A model generated the notes under the pieces. It saw only the letters and a program-made list of their open reading frames with translations, was not told the DNA's origin and searched no databases. Below are positions 1,597 through 12,928 of a stretch of 22,525 bases of DNA, in pieces (within the stretch, counting starts at the first letter, position 1; each line of letters begins with the position of its first letter). This DNA comes from a virus. The position numbers and the translations under genes are program-made. The stretch covers positions 1 through 22,525 of the IMG/VR virus record IMGVR_UViG_3300008448_000722. One strand, given 5' to 3'.

Positions 1597-2219
1597 TGGC
1601 GGCGACTAACTTTACACCCATCTCGCTGTACTACAGCACTACCGTATCTGCCGCCCCTATTGCGGGTAACCTCGTCAATGGTGAGTTGGCGATCAACATC
1701 ACTGACGGTAAGTTGTTCTACAAAGACAACGCCGCCGCTGTACAGGTGATTGGTTGGAAGACCACACCAGCCACGGCAGGCGGTACAGGTCAAACAACCT
1801 ACACTACTGGCGACATTTTGTATTCTTCCGCGACCAATACCTTGAGTAAGCTCGCGGCTGGTGCTAACGGCGAAGTTCTGACACTAGCTGGTGGCGTCCC
1901 AACTTGGGCGGCAAGCACTGGTGGTGTAACGTCATTTAGCGCTGGTACAACTGGCTTCACACCAAGTACAGCTACTACTGGTGCAATTACGTTGGGCGGC
2001 TTTTTGGGAGTAGCAAACGGCGGTTTAGGGGGTTCTACAACCCCTACCGCTGGTCAGATCCCAATAGGTAATGGCACAACGTACACAATTGCAACAATTA
2101 CCGCTGGCACTGGTATCTCTGTTACAAACGGTTCAGGTGCGATTACCATTGCCGCATCAGGCGGTAATAGTTCCATCGGAACGAATTTATACTTAGCAGT
2201 CAATTTTGGAGGATTTTAA
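1596..2219 (+). CDS. Short fibre-like structural protein
   Basis: This is a 207-residue protein. The ATG at 1596 is chosen over an in-frame ATG at 1566 because it has AGGAGG (1581-1586) nine bases upstream and overlaps the previous stop as TAATG. Residues 25-53 (NLVNGELAINITDGKLFYKD) form a motif common near the N-terminus of phage tail fibre proteins. Residues 110-143 repeat the GVTSFSAGTTGFTPST block at the C-terminal end of the preceding protein. The rest is Gly/Thr/Ala-rich beta-type sequence ending in NFGGF, with no enzyme motif. It is probably a fibre or fibre-accessory subunit made from the same modules as its neighbour. Alternatively, this gene and the previous one could be a split fibre, but the strong ribosome binding site and the fibre-type N-terminus favour a separate protein. 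Confidence 0.7.
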   Translation: MAATNFTPISLYYSTTVSAAPIAGNLVNGELAINITDGKLFYKDNAAAVQVIGWKTTPATAGGTGQTTYTTGDILYSSATNTLSKLAAGANGEVLTLAGGVPTWAASTGGVTSFSAGTTGFTPSTATTGAITLGGFLGVANGGLGGSTTPTAGQIPIGNGTTYTIATITAGTGISVTNGSGAITIAASGGNSSIGTNLYLAVNFGGF

Positions 2220-2221
2220 TC

Positions 2222-2704
2222 ATGGCAGTTACAGCAACACCCGTATTTACACAGACCCCTAACGTCGGGGCACTAAACGCCATCGTCAGCACGGCGATGA
2301 CCAACACTAAAGCATTTGACGGCACTGAAACTGCTGGCACGGCTTTGGCACTTGTCTTCACTGCTGGCGCTGATGGCGCTCGTATTGACCAGATCATGTG
2401 TCGTTTGGCATCAACCAACGGTGCTACAGCTTCTGGTACATCAGCGGCTACCGTGGTTCGTTTCTGGGCTAACAACAACTCAGTTAATACAACGGCTGGT
2501 AACAACATCTTTATTGGTGAGGTTGCAATCCCTGCAACTGCTGTTACCGCTTTGGGAACAACTGCGCTGACAACTTACCCCTTGACCTTGCCTTTGAACG
2601 GCTTGAATCTTCCAGCGTCTTACCGCATTTATGGTGGTTTGACTGTAGCGGCTGGCGGTACAAACATCGCTATTGCTTTGTCTGCATTCGGCGGGAACTA
2701 CTAA
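2222..2704 (+). CDS. Hypothetical virion protein in the fibre cluster
   Basis: This is a 160-residue protein. GGAGG at 2208-2212 lies nine bases before the ATG, and the previous stop is two bases upstream. The sequence is rich in Ala, Thr and Asn with alternating hydrophobic residues and no signal peptide or membrane segment, so a compact beta-rich fold is likely. I do not recognise a named family. The position between fibre-like and polyglycine adhesin genes, and a C-terminus ending in an aromatic residue (FGGNY), suggest a tail or baseplate accessory protein. A function beyond that is not supported. Confidence 0.6.
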   Translation: MAVTATPVFTQTPNVGALNAIVSTAMTNTKAFDGTETAGTALALVFTAGADGARIDQIMCRLASTNGATASGTSAATVVRFWANNNSVNTTAGNNIFIGEVAIPATAVTALGTTALTTYPLTLPLNGLNLPASYRIYGGLTVAAGGTNIAIALSAFGGNY

Positions 2705-2705
2705 G

Positions 2706-3701
2706 ATGCCTTGGTCACTTCAGATTACGGCCTTTAACTATGTCGTTAATGAAATGGCTGTGGATGTTCAGACGTTCACATCGTCTGGCGTATGGATAAA
2801 ACCACCTGAAGCCAATATCGTGCGCGTCTGCGTGTGGGGTGGTGGAGGCGGTGGGGGTAAGGGCGCTAGAAGTTCTAGTGCTACAAATACAAGCCCCGGT
2901 ACTGGCGGAGGCGGGGGCGCTAGAGCAAGTTTGACTTTCCCTGCTACGTGTCTTCCTAGTCAAGTAGGTGTAACTGTTGGCGCTGGGGGTGCAGGTAGTG
3001 AAGGTACTTGCGGCAGTGTTTTAGCCACCGCTGGTTCTGGCGGAACATCATCATTTGGTTGTTTCATCAAAGCCTATGGCGGTGGTGGTGGTGCGCAAGG
3101 TACAAGCAGTCGTTCTGGTGGATCAGGAGGTGGTACTGCTGGTGCTGGGGTTGCTAGTAGCATAACTTTTGCTACTGGCGGAGAACCATCGGGCACTGGT
3201 TTTGGTTCTTCAACTTATCCAAACAATTTAGGTGGCGGTGGCGGTGGCGCACAAGGCACTACTACTGTATCAGGAACTTCAGGAAGCGCCGAATGGGGTG
3301 GCGGTGCTGGTGGTAGAGGTGGAGAATGCGGATCAACTTGCTATAGGGGTGGTGGTGGATCAATTTTTGGCGGTGGTGGCGGCGGTAGCGGCGGATCAAT
3401 TGTTTCATGCGTCTATAAACGGGGCACTGGCGGCGGGACTGTGGTCTATGCTTCCAACCAATGTTTAACTACTGCTGGTACTGGTGTAGATGGCCCAAAT
3501 GGGATTACCCAAGCATCTGGTAGTGGTAGTGGTGGCTGGGGCGGCAATAGTAATGTGACTACTGTTAGACCCGGGAATGGTGGCAACGGTGGCATCCCTG
3601 CTGGTGGCGGGGGCGGTGGCGCGACGACTCTACTTGGTTATCCAACTGGTGGCTCTGGTGGTAACGGCGGTAACGGTATGGTTCGTGTTTATTCTTGGTA
3701 A
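2706..3701 (+). CDS. Polyglycine-rich adhesin-like protein, copy 1 of 3
   Basis: This is a 331-residue protein. The ATG at 2706 is preferred over an in-frame ATG at 2673, which lies inside the previous gene; only a weak GCGGG precedes it. Residues 1-51 form a framework shared with the two paralogues downstream: FNY, VQTFTSSGVW, IKPPxxxIVRVCVW, then a seven-Gly run at 45-51. The remainder is a series of G-rich runs separated by short variable loops, ending in VRVYSW. This matches the glycine-rich domain found in many phage tail proteins. By analogy with the phage S16 gp38 adhesin, it may fold as stacked polyglycine-II helices with receptor-binding loops at one end (inference). The protein is unusually rich in cysteine (RVCVW, ATCLPS, GTCGS, GECGSTC, VSCVYK, NQCL). 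Confidence 0.72.
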   Translation: MPWSLQITAFNYVVNEMAVDVQTFTSSGVWIKPPEANIVRVCVWGGGGGGGKGARSSSATNTSPGTGGGGGARASLTFPATCLPSQVGVTVGAGGAGSEGTCGSVLATAGSGGTSSFGCFIKAYGGGGGAQGTSSRSGGSGGGTAGAGVASSITFATGGEPSGTGFGSSTYPNNLGGGGGGAQGTTTVSGTSGSAEWGGGAGGRGGECGSTCYRGGGGSIFGGGGGGSGGSIVSCVYKRGTGGGTVVYASNQCLTTAGTGVDGPNGITQASGSGSGGWGGNSNVTTVRPGNGGNGGIPAGGGGGGATTLLGYPTGGSGGNGGNGMVRVYSW

Positions 3702-3707
3702 TTAGCT

Positions 3708-4811
3708 ATGACAATCACTAATCAACAAACATCGTTTAATTATCAAGTTACAGGTTCTGACGCAGATGTACAAACATTTACCGCATCTGGGCTTTGGAAT
3801 AAACCACCAAATGTAAAGTTAATTCGTGTCTGTGTATGGGGCGGTGGAGGTGGTGGTGCTTCTGGTGGCAGGGGAACTTCTAATGTGGCTGGAGGTGCTG
3901 GAGGTGGTGGGGGCGCTAGAGTTAGTAATTATTTTCAAGCCGCTTGTATACCCTCTCAAGTACAGGTGACTGTTGGTGCTGGCGGCGCAGGCGGCGCGGC
4001 AAGAACTACTAGTACTGGCGGTCTTGCCGGAACTGCTGGTGGGACTTCATCTTTTGGAAGCCATATAACAGCTTATGGCGGTGGCGGTGGTGGTGTAAAC
4101 GGAACTGGTTCTGATAATAGAGGTTCTGGCGGCGGTGGAGGTGGCTCTGGTGGAACTGGGGCTACTTCTACAGGAACTTCAACCCTTGGCGGTTTACCAA
4201 GAAATATTACTTACTATGGTGGAACTTCTGTAGGCCCCGGTTGTACCCCTTCTTATAACGGTGATAGGCAGGATAACATAGCTGGTGGTGGTGGCGGAAG
4301 CGCAAAGAGTACTTATGTGTGCTCCGGCTGTCCTTGTAACGTAGTAACTGTACAAAGAGGTTGGAACGGAAACGCCGAATGGGGTGGTGGGGCTGGCGCA
4401 CAAACACCAGCCAATACTACTACTTCTTCTGGCGACGCCGCTGGCTCTTCTATTTTTGGCGCTGGCGGTGGTGGTTATGGAGGGAATTTCCGCAATACTT
4501 CTACCAGTGTAGGTGCTTCTGCTGGGGGCGCGTCAAACAGTTACTCTAATGGTGGGGGTGGTGCGGCTGGTGTGAGTGGAGCGTCAAATACTGATGGAGT
4601 AGCAGGCACAACAAACACATCAACAGGAAGCGGCTCTGGTGGTGGCGGTGGCGGTAACACAGTGACCGCAGGACGTAATGGTGGAGCAGGCGGTGCAGGC
4701 GGGTTGTTTGGCGGTGGTGGTGGTGGAGGTGGGGCCAAAGGAGCGGGGGCCGACAGCTCTGGTGCTGGTGGTGCTGGCGCGGCTGGCGGTGTAAGAGTTT
4801 ATTCTTGGTAA
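3708..4811 (+). CDS. Polyglycine-rich adhesin-like protein, copy 2 of 3
   Basis: This is a 367-residue paralogue of its upstream neighbour, six bases after that stop. No Shine-Dalgarno is visible, so translation may be coupled to copy 1. Residues 1-51 align without gaps to copy 1 (FNY, VQTFTASGLW, NKPPxxKLIRVCVW, Gly run from 45). The second conserved block AACIPSQVQVTVGAGGAGG follows, and the protein ends in VRVYSW. The interior differs in length and loop sequence and includes a CSGCPC cluster near residues 205-210. Gly-rich runs lengthen toward the C-terminus. The probable role is a surface adhesin or distal fibre tip (inference). Long ORFs on the other strand here are by-products of the GGN codon runs. 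Confidence 0.72.
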   Translation: MTITNQQTSFNYQVTGSDADVQTFTASGLWNKPPNVKLIRVCVWGGGGGGASGGRGTSNVAGGAGGGGGARVSNYFQAACIPSQVQVTVGAGGAGGAARTTSTGGLAGTAGGTSSFGSHITAYGGGGGGVNGTGSDNRGSGGGGGGSGGTGATSTGTSTLGGLPRNITYYGGTSVGPGCTPSYNGDRQDNIAGGGGGSAKSTYVCSGCPCNVVTVQRGWNGNAEWGGGAGAQTPANTTTSSGDAAGSSIFGAGGGGYGGNFRNTSTSVGASAGGASNSYSNGGGGAAGVSGASNTDGVAGTTNTSTGSGSGGGGGGNTVTAGRNGGAGGAGGLFGGGGGGGGAKGAGADSSGAGGAGAAGGVRVYSW

Positions 4812-4820
4812 GAGGTAAAA

Positions 4821-5009
4821 ATGAAACGATATGCAATTATTGATTCCAACGGAACAGTAGACAACATCATCCTGTGGGACGAAGCGGCTCAGTGGTCGCC
4901 CCCCGAAGGCATGACTATGGTCAAAGTTGAAGACATTCTGTGCAGTATTGGGTGGAAGTACGAGAACGAAGTATTTACTGATCCAACCCCTGACACCCCT
5001 GCCGAGTAA
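4821..5009 (+). CDS. Small tail-cluster protein of unknown function
   Basis: This is a 62-residue acidic protein with GAGG (4812-4815) overlapping the end of copy 2 and five bases before the ATG. The pattern is KRYAIIDSNGTVDNIILWD, then a WSPPEG turn, then IGWKYENEVF and a Pro/Asp-rich tail. Small proteins of this style, often annotated as hypothetical, are common beside tail fibre genes of tailed phages. They resemble the N-terminal part of some fibre-assembly-type proteins (family recollection, not a match I can run). A chaperone or accessory role for the Gly-rich adhesins on either side is plausible but unproven. It interrupts an otherwise uniform three-gene array. Confidence 0.62.
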   Translation: MKRYAIIDSNGTVDNIILWDEAAQWSPPEGMTMVKVEDILCSIGWKYENEVFTDPTPDTPAE

Positions 5010-5023
5010 AGTCGGAGAACACC

Positions 5024-6004
5024 ATGCTGTCAAACCAACAAACATCTTTTAACTACAAAGTTTCAGAGCCAACAAGCAATGTTCAAAAGTTTACATCGTC
5101 TGGAACTTGGGTAAAACCTGTTGGCGTTACCTTTGTTCAAGTGTGTTTGTGGGGTAGCGGTGGCGGAGGTGGTGGTGGTTCTTTTGCAAGTTGTTCTAAT
5201 AAAGCATTAGGTGGTTCTGGAGGCGGTGGTGGTGCTAGGAATAGTCAAATTTTTATTGCCGCTTGTTTAACTTGCAGAGTTACTGTTACTGTTGGAGCAG
5301 GCGGAGCAGGTGGCGCAGGAAGAAATACGGTTGGTACTGGTCTTGTTGGCACTGCAGGCGGAACTACTAGCTTTGGCGCTTTTCTATCTTCTTTTGGGGG
5401 TGGTAGAGGTGGTAGCGGTTCTATTACACAATGTCTAAGCGGGGGTGCTGGAGGTGGTATTGCAAGTGCTGGCGGAAATAATAACACTACTACTGGCACT
5501 GCCTATGGTGGAAATCCAAATCCAAGATGCTTGTTTACCGATAATATAAGGGGCGGAGGCGGTTCAAATATTGCTGGAAACTGCGTTGGAAGTGCTGAGT
5601 TTGGTGGTGGTGGTGGTGGAAAAATATCTAGCGCAGGTGCTAATACTGCTGGCGGTGGTTCTTTGTATGGTGGCGCTGGTGGTGGTGCTGGTGGGACTAT
5701 TTGCGGTACAAACACTGCTGGGAAGGATGGTGGATCAAACACCTATGCACTTGGCGGCGGCGGAGCAGGCGGAGCGTTTCAGACCAATGGTACTGCGGGT
5801 ACAACATCTCTTAATCTTAGTGGAACGGGCGGTGGTGGTGGTGGTGCGGCACAATCAAGTAACCTCGGCGGTAATGGCGGTGCTGGTGGTGCATTTGGTG
5901 GTGGTGGGGGTGGCGGGGGTGCCTATAATGGGCCAAGTTGTTCATCAACTTCTGGCGCAGGTGGAGCAGGCGGTTCAGGTGGTGCCATAATATATTCTTG
6001 GTAA
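5024..6004 (+). CDS. Polyglycine-rich adhesin-like protein, copy 3 of 3
   Basis: This is a 326-residue third paralogue with GGAG (5014-5017) six bases before the ATG. The first 50 residues follow the framework of copies 1 and 2 with one residue less (NQQTSFNY, VQKFTSSGTW, VKPxGVTFVQVCLW, then a Gly run). The second block is AACLTCRVTVTVGAGGAGG, and the C-terminus is IIYSW. Its N-terminal NQQTSFNY is nearer to copy 2 than to copy 1, suggesting a copy 2/3 duplication after the first one. Cysteines appear in the loops (FASCSN, TQCLSG, NPRCLF, GNCVGS, TICGT, PSCSS). Its likely role is as for its paralogues: receptor recognition at the tail tip. Confidence 0.72.
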   Translation: MLSNQQTSFNYKVSEPTSNVQKFTSSGTWVKPVGVTFVQVCLWGSGGGGGGGSFASCSNKALGGSGGGGGARNSQIFIAACLTCRVTVTVGAGGAGGAGRNTVGTGLVGTAGGTTSFGAFLSSFGGGRGGSGSITQCLSGGAGGGIASAGGNNNTTTGTAYGGNPNPRCLFTDNIRGGGGSNIAGNCVGSAEFGGGGGGKISSAGANTAGGGSLYGGAGGGAGGTICGTNTAGKDGGSNTYALGGGGAGGAFQTNGTAGTTSLNLSGTGGGGGGAAQSSNLGGNGGAGGAFGGGGGGGGAYNGPSCSSTSGAGGAGGSGGAIIYSW

Positions 6005-6025: not shown

Positions 6026-6694
6026 ATGTGCGCCGCAAACGAAACCCCCCAACAAGACATCCTTAATGCAAACATATACTTTCCAACAGTCGTATACACC
6101 ATTGAAAAGCCTGAGTTCCTTGAAGCTGTAAACAAGGTCGCTGAAGAAGCTCTTGTAGAAGTTCGTAAGAACAAACCGCTCAACGAGATTTATCCAGTCC
6201 ACATGACTGGTAATCTGTACGACAAGCCTGAAATTATTCCGTTTCAATATTACGTTGGTGGCACAGCGGCAAACATCCTGAAAGAACAGGGCTATAACAC
6301 AGATGGTTTTGACCCGTACTTCTCAGAGATGTGGTGTCAGGAGCACTTTAAACACTCAGCAATGGATCAGCACGTTCATGGCGCTGGCTCACAGATCGTA
6401 GGCTTTTATTTCCTAGAAGCACCAGAAGACTGTTCCAAGGTTGTGTTCCATGACCCACGCGCTGGCAAACCATTGATCTCATGGGCAGAGACTGATATGT
6501 CTCAGGCTACAGCCGCAAGCAACATGATCAACTTTACGCCAAAGGCTGGTCTGCTAATCTTTACAAACGCTTGGTTGCCACACAGCTTTTCACGTAACGC
6601 ATCTGAAAAACCGATCAAGTTCATCCACTTTAACTTAGGTCTTCGCCCTGCCGCTCCAGTGTTTAATGTTGCACCAGCCGCTGAGGTGGTATGA
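6026..6694 (+). CDS. 2-oxoglutarate/Fe(II)-dependent oxygenase
   Basis: This is a 222-residue protein with AAAGGA at 6014-6019 before the ATG. It resembles the 2OG-Fe(II) oxygenase family often annotated as TIGR02466 or 2OG-FeII_Oxy_5, which is frequent in aquatic phages. Visible features are an N-terminal FPTVVYT segment; DQHVHG with His116 and His118 as candidate metal ligands; SQIVGFYFLEAPED followed by VVFHDPRAG (141-147); and a distal NAWLPHSF whose His186 is the expected second-shell-side iron ligand. The usual Arg that binds 2-oxoglutarate after this His may be replaced by Lys in EKPIKFIHFNL. Such enzymes hydroxylate proteins, nucleic acids or small molecules; the substrate here is unknown. 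The gene follows the adhesin array and overlaps the next gene by four bases (ATGA), suggesting co-expression with tail genes. Confidence 0.82.
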   Translation: MCAANETPQQDILNANIYFPTVVYTIEKPEFLEAVNKVAEEALVEVRKNKPLNEIYPVHMTGNLYDKPEIIPFQYYVGGTAANILKEQGYNTDGFDPYFSEMWCQEHFKHSAMDQHVHGAGSQIVGFYFLEAPEDCSKVVFHDPRAGKPLISWAETDMSQATAASNMINFTPKAGLLIFTNAWLPHSFSRNASEKPIKFIHFNLGLRPAAPVFNVAPAAEVV

Positions 6695-6969
6695 ACAAGT
6701 ACCACATTAGGTTCAACAAAACCCGTGGTCAGGCTGGGCGTGGATCAATGGATCACGTATGGCGTGTCTTTGAAAACGACAAAGAATTCCTATTCAAAAA
6801 CTTAGACATCACAGTCCCTGTCAAGAGCGAAAAAGACGCGAATGGGGTAGACTACAACATCACTTGCCAAGGCTACATGACGATGGACAGAGCCACGTCT
6901 ACAGCGATCATTGGCTCTGAACAACAGAACGAAGTTGAGGAAGAAAATGAAGTTGCAGTTGCCCATTGA
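6691..6969 (+). CDS. Small conserved-type protein coupled to the oxygenase
   Basis: This is a 92-residue protein whose ATG overlaps the oxygenase stop (ATGA); GAGGTGG lies just upstream inside the oxygenase gene. The N-terminal two thirds looks like a small beta-fold (KYHIRFNKTRG, HVWRVFENDKEFLFKNLDITVPV, YNITCQGYMTMDRATSTAII). The tail is acidic and low in complexity (EEENEVAVAH). I recall similar proteins near oxygenase genes in T4-like cyanophages, but cannot check this. No catalytic motif is seen. The tight coupling suggests function with, or regulation of, the oxygenase. Confidence 0.66.
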   Translation: MNKYHIRFNKTRGQAGRGSMDHVWRVFENDKEFLFKNLDITVPVKSEKDANGVDYNITCQGYMTMDRATSTAIIGSEQQNEVEEENEVAVAH

Positions 6970-9476: not shown

Positions 9477-10691
9477 ATGAGCTACAACTCACCATTCACA
9501 GGCAACGTCATTCAACCGACGGACGTCTCTTATCGCGCAGTTACGCTAAGCGCAAACACTCAGTTGGAGTGGCCCATCAACGGCAACGCTACTGACGACT
9601 TTGCCGCTCGTATCATGCAGGTTACGGCTACAAGTGCGGGTTTAAGCCTGTACATGCCACCTGCCAACCAAAGCTCGGTAGGCAATGATGCGCTGATCAG
9701 AAACGTCGGAATCAACACCTTTACGGTAAAAGACTACGCTGGCGCTAACACGATCATCTCTGTTGCCGCTGGTGAGTCTAAGTACGTTTACATCACAGCT
9801 AACCCTACAGTAACTGGCACATGGGGAACCATTGCTTTTGGCACGGGTACATCTTCTGCCGATGCGGGTACTTTGGCTGGCTTAGGTTTGGTTGCAAGTG
9901 GCGCAACATTGAACCAAAGTCACCCAGCGCAATCAATTGTGACTGGCGGAACCTTTGCTACTACAGATCGAGCTCAGGCGTTGGTGTGGAATGGTGGAGC
10001 TGGCACATACACGCTTCCATCGACTTCTACCTTGGGGAATAACTGGTTCACGATGTTCAAGAACAACGGATCTGGGTCAATGGTGATTTCAGCGTCTGAC
10101 AACATTGATGGCGTTTCTACAAAAACTTTTGCTCCAAATGAATCTGCATTTATTGTATGTACAGGAACAACCTACATCACGGTTGGATACGGTGTTAGCA
10201 CAACATTCTTCTACACCTCGTTAGTTAAGGCTGTAACGACTGGCTCTTATACACTAAGCTCTAGTGAGGCGTCTAACACCATACAGACATACACAGGAAC
10301 GCTTACAGGTAACGTGACGGTGGTTTATCCGCCTGTTGTGAACTTGTACGTGATCAAGAACTCTGTGACCGCTGGTGGCTATACACTGACAGTAGGCACT
10401 GGCTCAGGAACCTCTGTGGTTGTTCCTGCTGGTCAGCAAGTTACTTTGGCTTGCGATGGTACGAACTTCTTCAACGCAAATACATCTCAAGCTGGCGCTG
10501 TTACAACGGTAAGCTTGTCTGATGGAAATGTTGGTTCGCCCTCTTTAAATTTTGCTAGTGAGACAAATACAGGTATTTATCGAGCTGGAGCTGGTCGCTT
10601 TAACATCGCTGTTGGCGGATCAATGGCTGTTGACGTAACAAGCAGTGGAATGAAAGTTCCTGTTGGTATTTCTGGGGGCACGTTTGTATGA
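9477..10691 (+). CDS. Fibre-like virion protein between adaptor and nozzle genes
   Basis: This is a 404-residue protein with TAAGGA (9466-9471) before the ATG. The sequence is Gly/Thr/Ser-rich and beta in character throughout. Residues about 354-387 (PSLNFASETNTGIYRAGAGR followed by a VGGSMAVDV strand) match a motif widely seen near the C-terminus of phage tail fibres, often before an intramolecular chaperone, which is absent here. The final residues GISGGTFV share GISGGTF with the end of the fibre-like protein at 1-1596. The codons for this end contain GGGGG (10674-10678), the likely ribosome binding site of the nozzle gene, whose ATG overlaps the stop by four bases. It is probably a side fibre or tail decoration attached near the nozzle (inference). 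Confidence 0.7.
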   Translation: MSYNSPFTGNVIQPTDVSYRAVTLSANTQLEWPINGNATDDFAARIMQVTATSAGLSLYMPPANQSSVGNDALIRNVGINTFTVKDYAGANTIISVAAGESKYVYITANPTVTGTWGTIAFGTGTSSADAGTLAGLGLVASGATLNQSHPAQSIVTGGTFATTDRAQALVWNGGAGTYTLPSTSTLGNNWFTMFKNNGSGSMVISASDNIDGVSTKTFAPNESAFIVCTGTTYITVGYGVSTTFFYTSLVKAVTTGSYTLSSSEASNTIQTYTGTLTGNVTVVYPPVVNLYVIKNSVTAGGYTLTVGTGSGTSVVVPAGQQVTLACDGTNFFNANTSQAGAVTTVSLSDGNVGSPSLNFASETNTGIYRAGAGRFNIAVGGSMAVDVTSSGMKVPVGISGGTFV

Positions 10692-12928
10692 CCAAAAAGG
10701 TCTTTGCTCTCGACACAAAGGCTGGCATCCAACGCGATGGTACGGTCTTTGACAAAGAGTTTTACAACTCTGGTCGTTGGGTAAGGTTCCAGCGCGGACG
10801 TCCTCGCAAGATTGGTGGCTATAGGCAGATCACGGCTGGGCTGTCAGGGCCATCCAGAGGCATCTACGTCAACCCACAGCAAAGCTTTAACAACGTCTTC
10901 AGTGGGCACTCACAAGGCTTGCAGGTTGTTCCAATTGACAACAATGGTGTGGGTGCTGGTATCACGGATATGACGCTGAGCAACTTCACCTCATCGGACA
11001 ATAATCTGTGGCAGTTTGATGCGTTCTATGATGTAAGTGGGTCAGGGAATAATTTGCTCCTCGCGCACCCGGGGCAAAACCTCACGCTCATCGACAACAA
11101 CGTCAACACCCCCGTTTTGGGCGGCGCTATCACTGGCACCTCTTTGTCAGCGCTTGGCATATTTACTGAGTCAGCGTACTTAAACGCCACCACGACCATG
11201 TACCTTTCAACCCAGAGCCTTTTGATTGGCGCTGGTCAGTCCATCTCTGGGACTGGTATTCCCTCTGGTACTACTGTTGTTTCAGCCAATCTTTTTGTGC
11301 CTGTTTTGAACGCTGTGGCTGTGACTGGCACGGCTGGTCAGTGTTCTTGTACATCAACAACTGGTCTTTATATTGGTCAAAGAGTTGCTGTTTCAGGCAC
11401 TTTGACTGGTACTGCTACAGGCATTACCTCTGGCGTGACGTACTTTATCATCGCCACTAACTACGCCACAACATTTACGCTTTCTGCCTCTTCTGGTGGT
11501 GCGGCAATTACGACTACTGCTGGAACAACTGACGGTTTGGTTTTCACAGCAACTCAAGTACAGAACGTGGTGATTTCAGCCGCCGCAACAGCTTCTGGCG
11601 CCTCTACGATCACGTTTAACAACAATATTTCGGTGTCTGGTGGCGTGGTTACCCTTCACCCTTATGTGTTTGTGTACGGAAATGATGGGCTGATAAAGAA
11701 CTGCTCAGCAGGCAACACCAATGATTGGGTCTCTGCTGACGCAAATGAGGTCTCTGTAGCCACTGGAAAGATTGTCCAAGGGCTACCAGTCAGGGGCGGC
11801 TCAAACGCGCCTTCTGGGCTGTTTTGGAGCCTTGATAGCCTTATTCGCGTGTCCTACATCGGTGGTGCTGGTACGCCCCCACAGTTTTGGCGATATGACT
11901 TAATCTCTTCACAGTCATCTATCCTGTCTTCTCAGTGCGTAATTGAGTACGACGGTGTTTACTATTGGATTGGTGTTGATAGGTTCTTGCTCTACAACGG
12001 TGTTGTGAAGGAGATCTCCAACAACATGAACCAAAACTACTTTTTTGACAACTTAAACTACGCCCAGCGCGAGAAGATTTGGGTGTCAAAGGTTCCTCGT
12101 TTTGGTGAAGTTTGGTGGTTCTACCCACGCGGTGATGCAACCGAATGTACAGACGCAATCATCTACAACATTCGCGAGAATACTTGGTATGACGCAGGTG
12201 AGGCTCTTGGAGCTCGTCGCTCTGCTGGTTACTTCTCTCAGCTTTTTCCTTACCCAATTGCCGCCTCTTGGGAAGCCAATGAAGTTGGCGGTATCAATAC
12301 CGTCACATTGACCAACGCTGGATCTGGTTACACAAACGGCACATACAACAGCCAAGCGCTTACAGGCGGAAGCGGTACAGGCGCAACAGCAAATATCACG
12401 GTTGCTGGTGGTGTTATTACTGCTGTCGCAATCTTTAACAAGGGTCAAAACTACGTTACTGGTGACGTTTTGTCTGCCGCAATCCCTGCTGGATCTAACC
12501 TTGCAATTACGGTTGGTCAGGTGGTTAATTTTGTGTCGCTATGGCAACATGAGATTGGAACTGATGCGGTTCAGAATACGACAGCTCTTGCGATTGAGTC
12601 ATTTTTTGAAACCAATGATCTTGGATTGGTCTCAGGCGGCCCGTCCCAACCAAACCCTGTTGGAGACAACAGGTGGCTACGTTTAGAGCGTATTGAGCCT
12701 GACTTTGTGCAATCAGGCGAGATGGAAATCTACGTGACTGGTCGATCATTTGCTCAGTCCAACGACGTGACGACTGGCCCCTACCCATTTGATCCAGACA
12801 CTGGAAAGGTTGACATGCGCGAACAGCGCCGTGAGCTTCGCCTAAAGTTTGTCTCTAACGTGGCTGGTGGTAACTACCAAGTTGGTAAGGTTGTCCTAGA
12901 CGCAGACGTGGGTGACGTGAGACCATAA
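10688..12928 (+). CDS. Tail nozzle / DNA stabilisation protein, P22 gp10-like, with inserted domains
   Basis: This is a 746-residue protein. The N-terminus IQRDGTVFDKEFYNSGRW followed by VRFQRGRPRKIGGYR is characteristic of the packaged-DNA stabilisation (gp10-like) family that forms the nozzle of short-tailed phages. Later conserved parts are RVSYIGGAGTPPQFWRYDLI, YYWIGVDRFLLYNG, YFFDNLNYAQREKIWVSKV, WWFYPRGDATECTDAIIYNI and, at the C-terminus, RWLRLERIEPDF and MEIYVTGR. This is consistent with a beta-propeller body. Two stretches look inserted: about 211-291 (GLYIGQRVAVSG, ITSGVTYFIIATNYATTFTL) and about 531-614 (LTNAGSGYTNGTYNSQALTG, GGVITAVAIFNKGQNYVTGD). Both resemble small beta modules found scattered among tail proteins. 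It completes the tail conduit. The start overlaps the previous stop and the end overlaps the next ATG by one base. Confidence 0.82.
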   Translation: MTKKVFALDTKAGIQRDGTVFDKEFYNSGRWVRFQRGRPRKIGGYRQITAGLSGPSRGIYVNPQQSFNNVFSGHSQGLQVVPIDNNGVGAGITDMTLSNFTSSDNNLWQFDAFYDVSGSGNNLLLAHPGQNLTLIDNNVNTPVLGGAITGTSLSALGIFTESAYLNATTTMYLSTQSLLIGAGQSISGTGIPSGTTVVSANLFVPVLNAVAVTGTAGQCSCTSTTGLYIGQRVAVSGTLTGTATGITSGVTYFIIATNYATTFTLSASSGGAAITTTAGTTDGLVFTATQVQNVVISAAATASGASTITFNNNISVSGGVVTLHPYVFVYGNDGLIKNCSAGNTNDWVSADANEVSVATGKIVQGLPVRGGSNAPSGLFWSLDSLIRVSYIGGAGTPPQFWRYDLISSQSSILSSQCVIEYDGVYYWIGVDRFLLYNGVVKEISNNMNQNYFFDNLNYAQREKIWVSKVPRFGEVWWFYPRGDATECTDAIIYNIRENTWYDAGEALGARRSAGYFSQLFPYPIAASWEANEVGGINTVTLTNAGSGYTNGTYNSQALTGGSGTGATANITVAGGVITAVAIFNKGQNYVTGDVLSAAIPAGSNLAITVGQVVNFVSLWQHEIGTDAVQNTTALAIESFFETNDLGLVSGGPSQPNPVGDNRWLRLERIEPDFVQSGEMEIYVTGRSFAQSNDVTTGPYPFDPDTGKVDMREQRRELRLKFVSNVAGGNYQVGKVVLDADVGDVRP

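Follow-up and report, generated by a model that had tools for sequence, protein, structure and literature searches.

Phages are known to use polyglycine-lattice adhesins either as fibre tips (S16, PP01, Pam3) or, in mycobacteriophages, as brushes. In gp38 of S16 and PP01, a polyglycine-II lattice growing from a β-helix presents the receptor loops, and an N-terminal helical bundle fixes gp38 to the gp37 trimer (PMC6851490, PMC12892980); in case of PP01, loop residues touch the receptor (PMC12892980). The glycine-rich domain of Pam3 has a conserved stem and a hypervariable tip (PMC9608196), and the domains of Pam3, Bxb1 and S16 were noted to resemble one another in a paper of 2026 (PMC13243192). 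Here, such adhesins appear as a fixed set of three in uncultured phages, encoded by three glycine-rich genes (GR1, GR2 and GR3, or copies 1 to 3) of a 22.5-kb IMG/VR virus record (IMGVR_UViG_3300008448_000722), which probably is a fragment and was analyzed over its full length of 22,525 nucleotides (nt; the window hereafter). Their products probably represent three receptor-binding heads of one phage, located on its tail for the recognition of bacterial surfaces, carried in a stable and mobile cassette and renewed in place in their loops.

The three genes, for which a preliminary description had proposed common ends and differing interiors, were found as open reading frames (ORFs, Table 1) encoding proteins with 32–33 % glycine. 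Copies 1 and 2 align without gaps over the first 57 alignment columns, copy 3 requires one gap, and all three copies end with YSW, in agreement with the near-collinearity of the first ~50 residues and the shared end reported before. Whole-length identity to copy 1 amounts to 51 % for copy 2 and 45 % for copy 3, figures that are inflated by glycine. Since a BLASTP comparison of copies 1 and 2 with composition adjustment yields E = 4e-20 (residues 6–124), and a hidden Markov model of the N-terminal 125 residues recovers the same arrangement in other contigs (~1e-36 to 1e-57), the resemblance of the copies is not a glycine artefact. The tandem arrangement holds in so far as the genes are neighbouring and collinear, but they do not follow one another without interruption, a small gene (g62) separating copies 2 and 3. 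Likewise, loops, insertions and deletions do differ between the copies, but the interiors are homologous as well, with glycine-run blocks in register and the variable parts between these blocks.

All three proteins score above the curated cut-off (24.3 bits) of PF21722 Gly_rich_2, i.e., 35.2, 41.5 and 28.9 bits for GR1, GR2 and GR3, respectively, and match tail families of PHROGs. An AlphaFold2 (AF2) monomer model of GR2, built from alignment A3, which comprises 30 sequences of the window and the loci, reached a mean predicted local distance difference test score (pLDDT) of 83.3 and a predicted template modelling score (pTM) of 0.83, with pLDDT below 50 for residues 1–16. Its best match among solved folds is Bxb1 gp33 (PDB 9d93; Z 22.5, root mean square deviation 2.5, 210 residues), which was also the single match (E 4e-4) of a profile search against PDB sequences. 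The part of Pam3 gp24 comprising the tumour necrosis factor (TNF)-like and glycine-rich domains matches with Z 16.2 over 198 residues, both Z-scores lying far above those of unrelated entries. The next fold matches are the glycine-rich domains of ALK and LTK (Z 6.4–9.5). GR2 is thus predicted to be a TNF-like plus polyglycine-lattice adhesin head of the Bxb1 gp33/Pam3 gp24 type, to which copies 1 and 3 are assigned by homology only. Structure prediction thereby sustains the anticipated polyglycine scaffold for copy 2, in which the lattice would be accompanied by a TNF-like β-sandwich, but the closest folds are those of Bxb1 gp33 and Pam3 gp24 rather than that of S16 gp38, the example originally named. 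S16 gp38 (6F45) was absent among the PDB fold and sequence matches listed, which is not taken as exclusion. Residues 1–60 of the GR2 model are devoid of helix, the first 16 of them being of low confidence; an S16-type N-terminal helical bundle with Trp residues was accordingly not found. The S16-like alternation is present in GR2, as the glycine-run columns have a mean identity of 0.84 versus 0.47 in the loops (seven close orthologues).

When viral contigs were searched with the adhesins, a stabilisation protein encoded further downstream and the product of the gene preceding GR1 (g160) as queries, 12 distinct complete cassettes were obtained (window, L006, L007, L009, L010, L013, L015, L016, L017, L018, L129 and L162). 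The gene order g160-GR1-GR2-g62-GR3-2OG-g92 is the same in 12/12, where 2OG denotes a 2OG-Fe(II) oxygenase gene kept in every complete three-copy cassette, and the copy number is always three. Nine other contigs with g160 have one glycine-rich gene directly after it (in case of L151, a second one lies farther upstream), and in many contigs this slot holds other proteins. In the collections of isolate phages searched, no relative of GR2, of its N-terminal 129 residues or of g160 was found.

Across these relatives, the ends of the heads are conserved and the interiors are hypervariable. The window and L007 share 92 % nt identity in g160, 96 % in g62, 88 % in the oxygenase gene and 87–92 % in the N-termini of the heads versus 61–65 % in their interiors. 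Outside glycine, the seven closest cassettes agree best in the two leading N-terminal blocks (identity 0.87 and 0.85), followed by the strand block 76–95 (0.76) and the C-terminal block (0.55), whereas the remaining blocks of the heads are mostly at 0.21–0.46; between paralogues, identity in the variable blocks is 0.10–0.25. Mismatches cluster beyond shuffled controls in 12/12 comparisons of head genes and in 0/4 of the oxygenase gene; because they also cluster in 3/4 comparisons of g160, the contrast between heads and neighbours is one of degree. The comparison of related contigs thus confirms the expected combination of fixed ends and varying loops, but not a varying copy number. Cysteines are abundant in the heads of all cassettes (3–13 per protein) and often located in variable loops, their number and parity not being fixed.

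The closest fold, Bxb1 gp33, is named tail wing brush, and brush fingers of mycobacteriophages are presumed to contact lipid-rich walls (PMC13243795). The three proteins might therefore be structural brushes making unspecific contact with lipids or sugars, with loop variation reflecting relaxed constraint instead of receptor choice. This appears unlikely, since glycine runs and core strands are retained while loops are replaced, sharply unlike the neighbouring genes, and since, among the genes that can be identified in variable islands of marine phages, those for tail fibres, oxygenases and gp38-like proteins are frequent (PMC3909814).

The mode of change is indicated by 29 strong shared interior DNA segments, 27 of which connect genes at the same position, whereas both cross-position segments represent scaffold motifs and not loops. 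In addition, a stretch of 1770 nt in GR1-GR2 is identical in two contigs from different metagenomes. Both observations speak in favour of loops that are renewed in place in the course of evolution, instead of being shuffled among the copies or switched rapidly. In each head, this renewal would proceed by divergence and by same-position recombination with relatives. Loop shuffling between copies was rejected as main process by the segment counts, and fast switching is disfavoured by the identical stretch. A diversity-generating retroelement is not favoured either, as the loops vary in length as well as by substitution; an RVT_1 reverse transcriptase was found in none of nine related records, all of which are possibly incomplete. 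Exchange would be feasible between homologous genes that, like these three, have conserved ends, and the patchy interiors could be taken as its trace, in which case the extra copies would form a reservoir, an alternative named in the preliminary description, with one head being displayed at a time and loops being exchanged via glycine-codon repeats. In view of the distribution of shared segments, the identical stretch, the lack of a reverse transcriptase in the nine records and the retention of its own N-terminus by every copy, such a reservoir is highly improbable. The same constancy (three copies in 12/12, position-specific N-termini, 27 versus 2 segments) does not bear out an array that expands, contracts or exchanges loops between copies.

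In a tree based on residues 1–48, the heads group by gene position with 3 changes (minimum 2, shuffled mean 14.8), the single forks being weak because of the few columns. Since the N-terminal tags are position-specific, each head probably has its own place. Of 57 distinct loci, 51 have the tag Q..(A/S)FN(Y/L) after g160 according to a strict pattern, and the other six have variants recognized by eye. The tag is borne by differing bodies in this slot (proteins of 120, 150 and 380 amino acids, aa), whereas outside the slot just 17 of ~8,600 ORFs of the loci contain it, most of them unrelated. Its occurrence on unrelated proteins in the same slot suggests a virion-docking tag. A tag like N(I/L)(F/Y)LA.NFGGF usually forms the C-terminus encoded by the gene preceding g160 (NLYLAVNFGGF in the window). 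The g160 protein shares 81–94 % identity among the first homologues aligned and has relatives in at least 183 viral contigs, and it gave no match in PHROGs, PDB sequences, isolate phages or GTDB genome contigs, the latter searched with a g160 profile in an attempt to find the host by prophages. On the basis of these sequence patterns, the simplest reading of the tags is that they serve for docking in an exchangeable slot, g160 being a candidate dock. Each head would then dock on the virion by its short N-terminal tag, followed by the TNF-like β-sandwich and a polyglycine-II strand lattice that holds the variable loops toward the host surface. All three heads would be carried together. Several receptor specificities on one virion, as considered in the preliminary description, are plausible.

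The small protein g62 is assigned to phrog_14370, a family of unknown function. Its AF2 model (pLDDT 82, pTM 0.62) has as top two PDB matches the tail-fibre chaperone of Mu (5yvq_B; probability 0.93, Foldseek E 0.11) and the Pam3 chaperone gp25 (7ypx_a; Z 6.4, 60/62 residues aligned), while a PDB sequence search gave chance matches only. Pam3 gp25 is the partner of the fibre (gp24) that matches the adhesins. Homologues of g62 directly follow glycine-rich genes in all seven isolate phages read (L201–L203, L205–L208), i.e., phages of Arthrobacter, Microbacterium, Salmonella, Pseudomonas and Burkholderia. The preceding proteins contain 23–33 % glycine over their last 250 residues, and Gly_rich_2 matched in 5/5 isolates tested, above cut-off in 4/5. 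Judging from fold match and gene context, g62 is probably a chaperone that would shield and fold the glycine lattices of the heads. Proteins like phrog_14370 may be annotated as probable glycine-rich adhesin chaperone.

In 10/10 single-copy g160 loci, the small protein carries a short helix-like C-terminal tail, which is absent in 12/12 three-copy cassettes; there, g62 stops after the β domain, and a helical trimerisation domain at the C-terminus is missing. In C1q, a mixed trimer is formed by the chains A, B and C. By analogy to the C1q head, the three paralogues could form one heterotrimeric, asymmetric adhesin tip with one chain each. The TNF-like domain of the matching fold is trimeric in Pam3 gp24 (PMC9608196), exactly three copies are present in every cassette, N-termini and strands are specific to position, and the distribution of the chaperone tail would fit as well: with no homotrimer to be templated any more, the chaperone would have lost its self-associating tail. 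Absence of the tail may, however, go back to a single evolutionary event in one lineage, three separate homotrimers account for the same data, and Pam3 trimerises chiefly via an N-terminal helix bundle, which the GR proteins do not have. A mixed tip is therefore considered rather improbable, and three separately placed heads are preferred.

DNA shared with L009, L010 and L015 begins at ~2169–2184, within the terminal part of the fibre gene located upstream, and the strong shared block extends to ~6911, inside g92; in case of L010, lysis genes further on are additionally shared. Conversely, L044, L051 and L084 have a common backbone with the window from ~7–9 kb onward, without the cassette. These boundaries, together with the cassette-less backbone relatives, point to an exchangeable host-recognition block. 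The block, which extends from the terminal part of this fibre gene via g160, the three heads, the chaperone gene and the oxygenase gene to g92, would move between phages of different backbones.

Several points weigh against the interpretation as three receptor-binding heads with a dedicated chaperone. Fold evidence is from copy 2 alone and from a monomer model, conservation of the tag could have another cause, and the chaperone match of g62 taken alone is weak, with the above Foldseek E-value and a Z-score in the middling range of the tool. Furthermore, every relative with the cassette is a metagenomic contig, and glycine-rich repeats are prone to misassembly: L011 is without 67 nt of copy 2 that are present in the near-identical L010. 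This deletion (~8388 in L011, ~9660 in L010) entails a frameshift, shows no microhomology and may be a real deletion or an assembly error.

Table 1 Genes and predicted elements of the adhesin cassette and its upstream neighbours (positions in the window)
Feature	Position	Strand	Basis
Fibre-like protein, 530 aa	4..1596	+	phrog_8745 tail fiber protein 1.2e-19
Fibre-like protein, 207 aa counted from 1599	1599..2219	+	phrog_31660 tail fiber; C-terminal tag
g160, 160 aa, directly 5' of the adhesin slot, candidate dock	2222..2704	+	Conserved in viral contigs
GR1, predicted glycine-rich adhesin head, copy 1, 331 aa	2706..3701	+	ORF; PF21722 Gly_rich_2 1.7e-8; phrog_863 tail
GR1 putative N-terminal docking tag (SLQITAFNYVVNE...)	2706..2765	+	Tag downstream of g160 in most loci
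GR2, predicted glycine-rich adhesin head, copy 2, 367 aa	3708..4811	+	PF21722 2e-10; AF2 model; Bxb1 gp33/Pam3 gp24 fold match
GR2 putative N-terminal docking tag (TNQQTSFNYQV...)	3708..3767	+	Conservation specific to position; low pLDDT in residues 1–16 of the model
g62, probable adhesin chaperone, 62 aa, putative client-binding β domain, without C-terminal helix	4821..5009	+	phrog_14370; AF2 fold; gene context
GR3, predicted glycine-rich adhesin head, copy 3, 326 aa	5024..6004	+	PF21722 1.5e-6; whole-length alignment with copies 1 and 2
GR3 putative N-terminal docking tag (LSNQQTSFNYKVSE...)	5024..5080	+	Conservation specific to position
2OG-Fe(II) oxygenase, 3' side of the cassette	6026..6694	+	PF13759 1.2e-9; phrog_81
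g92, small protein	6691..6969	+	Shared DNA of the cassette mostly stops inside, ~6905–6912

Downstream of the oxygenase gene, the window harbours endolysin, holin and virion genes. The stabilisation protein (10688–12928) shares ~45 % identity with proteins of the Caulobacter phages RW, GB2A, RLK and KcrB over 62 % of its length, a host hint that may serve as a lead only. The oxygenase encoded beside the adhesins is a possible modifier of the virion or host surface; a literature search for oxygenases tied to tail fibres found nothing direct. Upstream of its cassette, contig L012 (563–5117) contains further glycine-rich genes of a second type, the products of which end like RIIW..(R)TFPSTN, and two of these genes are followed by genes for proteins of ~160–180 aa.

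Compared to described systems, the locus combines known building blocks in a new, fixed three-head arrangement. Bxb1 gp33 resembles GR2 over nearly the whole predicted fold, but the match does not extend to the N-terminal tag or the three-gene cassette, and it leaves out residues 1–19 of the model. Pam3 gp24/gp25 (PDB 7ypx, 7yfw; PMC9608196) matches GR2 in the TNF-like and glycine-rich domains, and the client-binding domain of its chaperone gives the best-aligned, though modest, match of g62, but its fibre docks and trimerises by the N-terminal helix bundle and its chaperone has the C-terminal helical trimerisation domain that is missing in g62. In case of S16/PP01 gp38, the likeness consists in glycine-rich motifs alternating with hypervariable loops, while the gp38 lattice is of β-helix origin and its attachment is by a helical bundle. 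All three GR proteins are members of the PF21722 Gly_rich_2 phage proteins, a family that is silent on copy number, tag and cassette. Mycobacteriophage Mysterious has two consecutively numbered minor tail proteins (gp31/gp32) with predicted polyglycine-rich domains (PMC13252515), i.e., two proteins and not three, and neither a shared tag nor a loop comparison is reported there. Host-recognition blocks that are exchanged or vary between phages otherwise differing or resembling each other likewise occur as shared modules of Alteromonas phages (PMC10579305) and as metaviromic islands (PMC3909814), which involve other fibres and no triple adhesin. With naturally varying loops on scaffolds that stay constant, the cassettes described here offer material for identifying the loops that determine host range, and the function proposed for phrog_14370, adhesin chaperone, is testable in cultured phages. 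Finally, the set of three raises the question of whether phages build mixed-chain tips.

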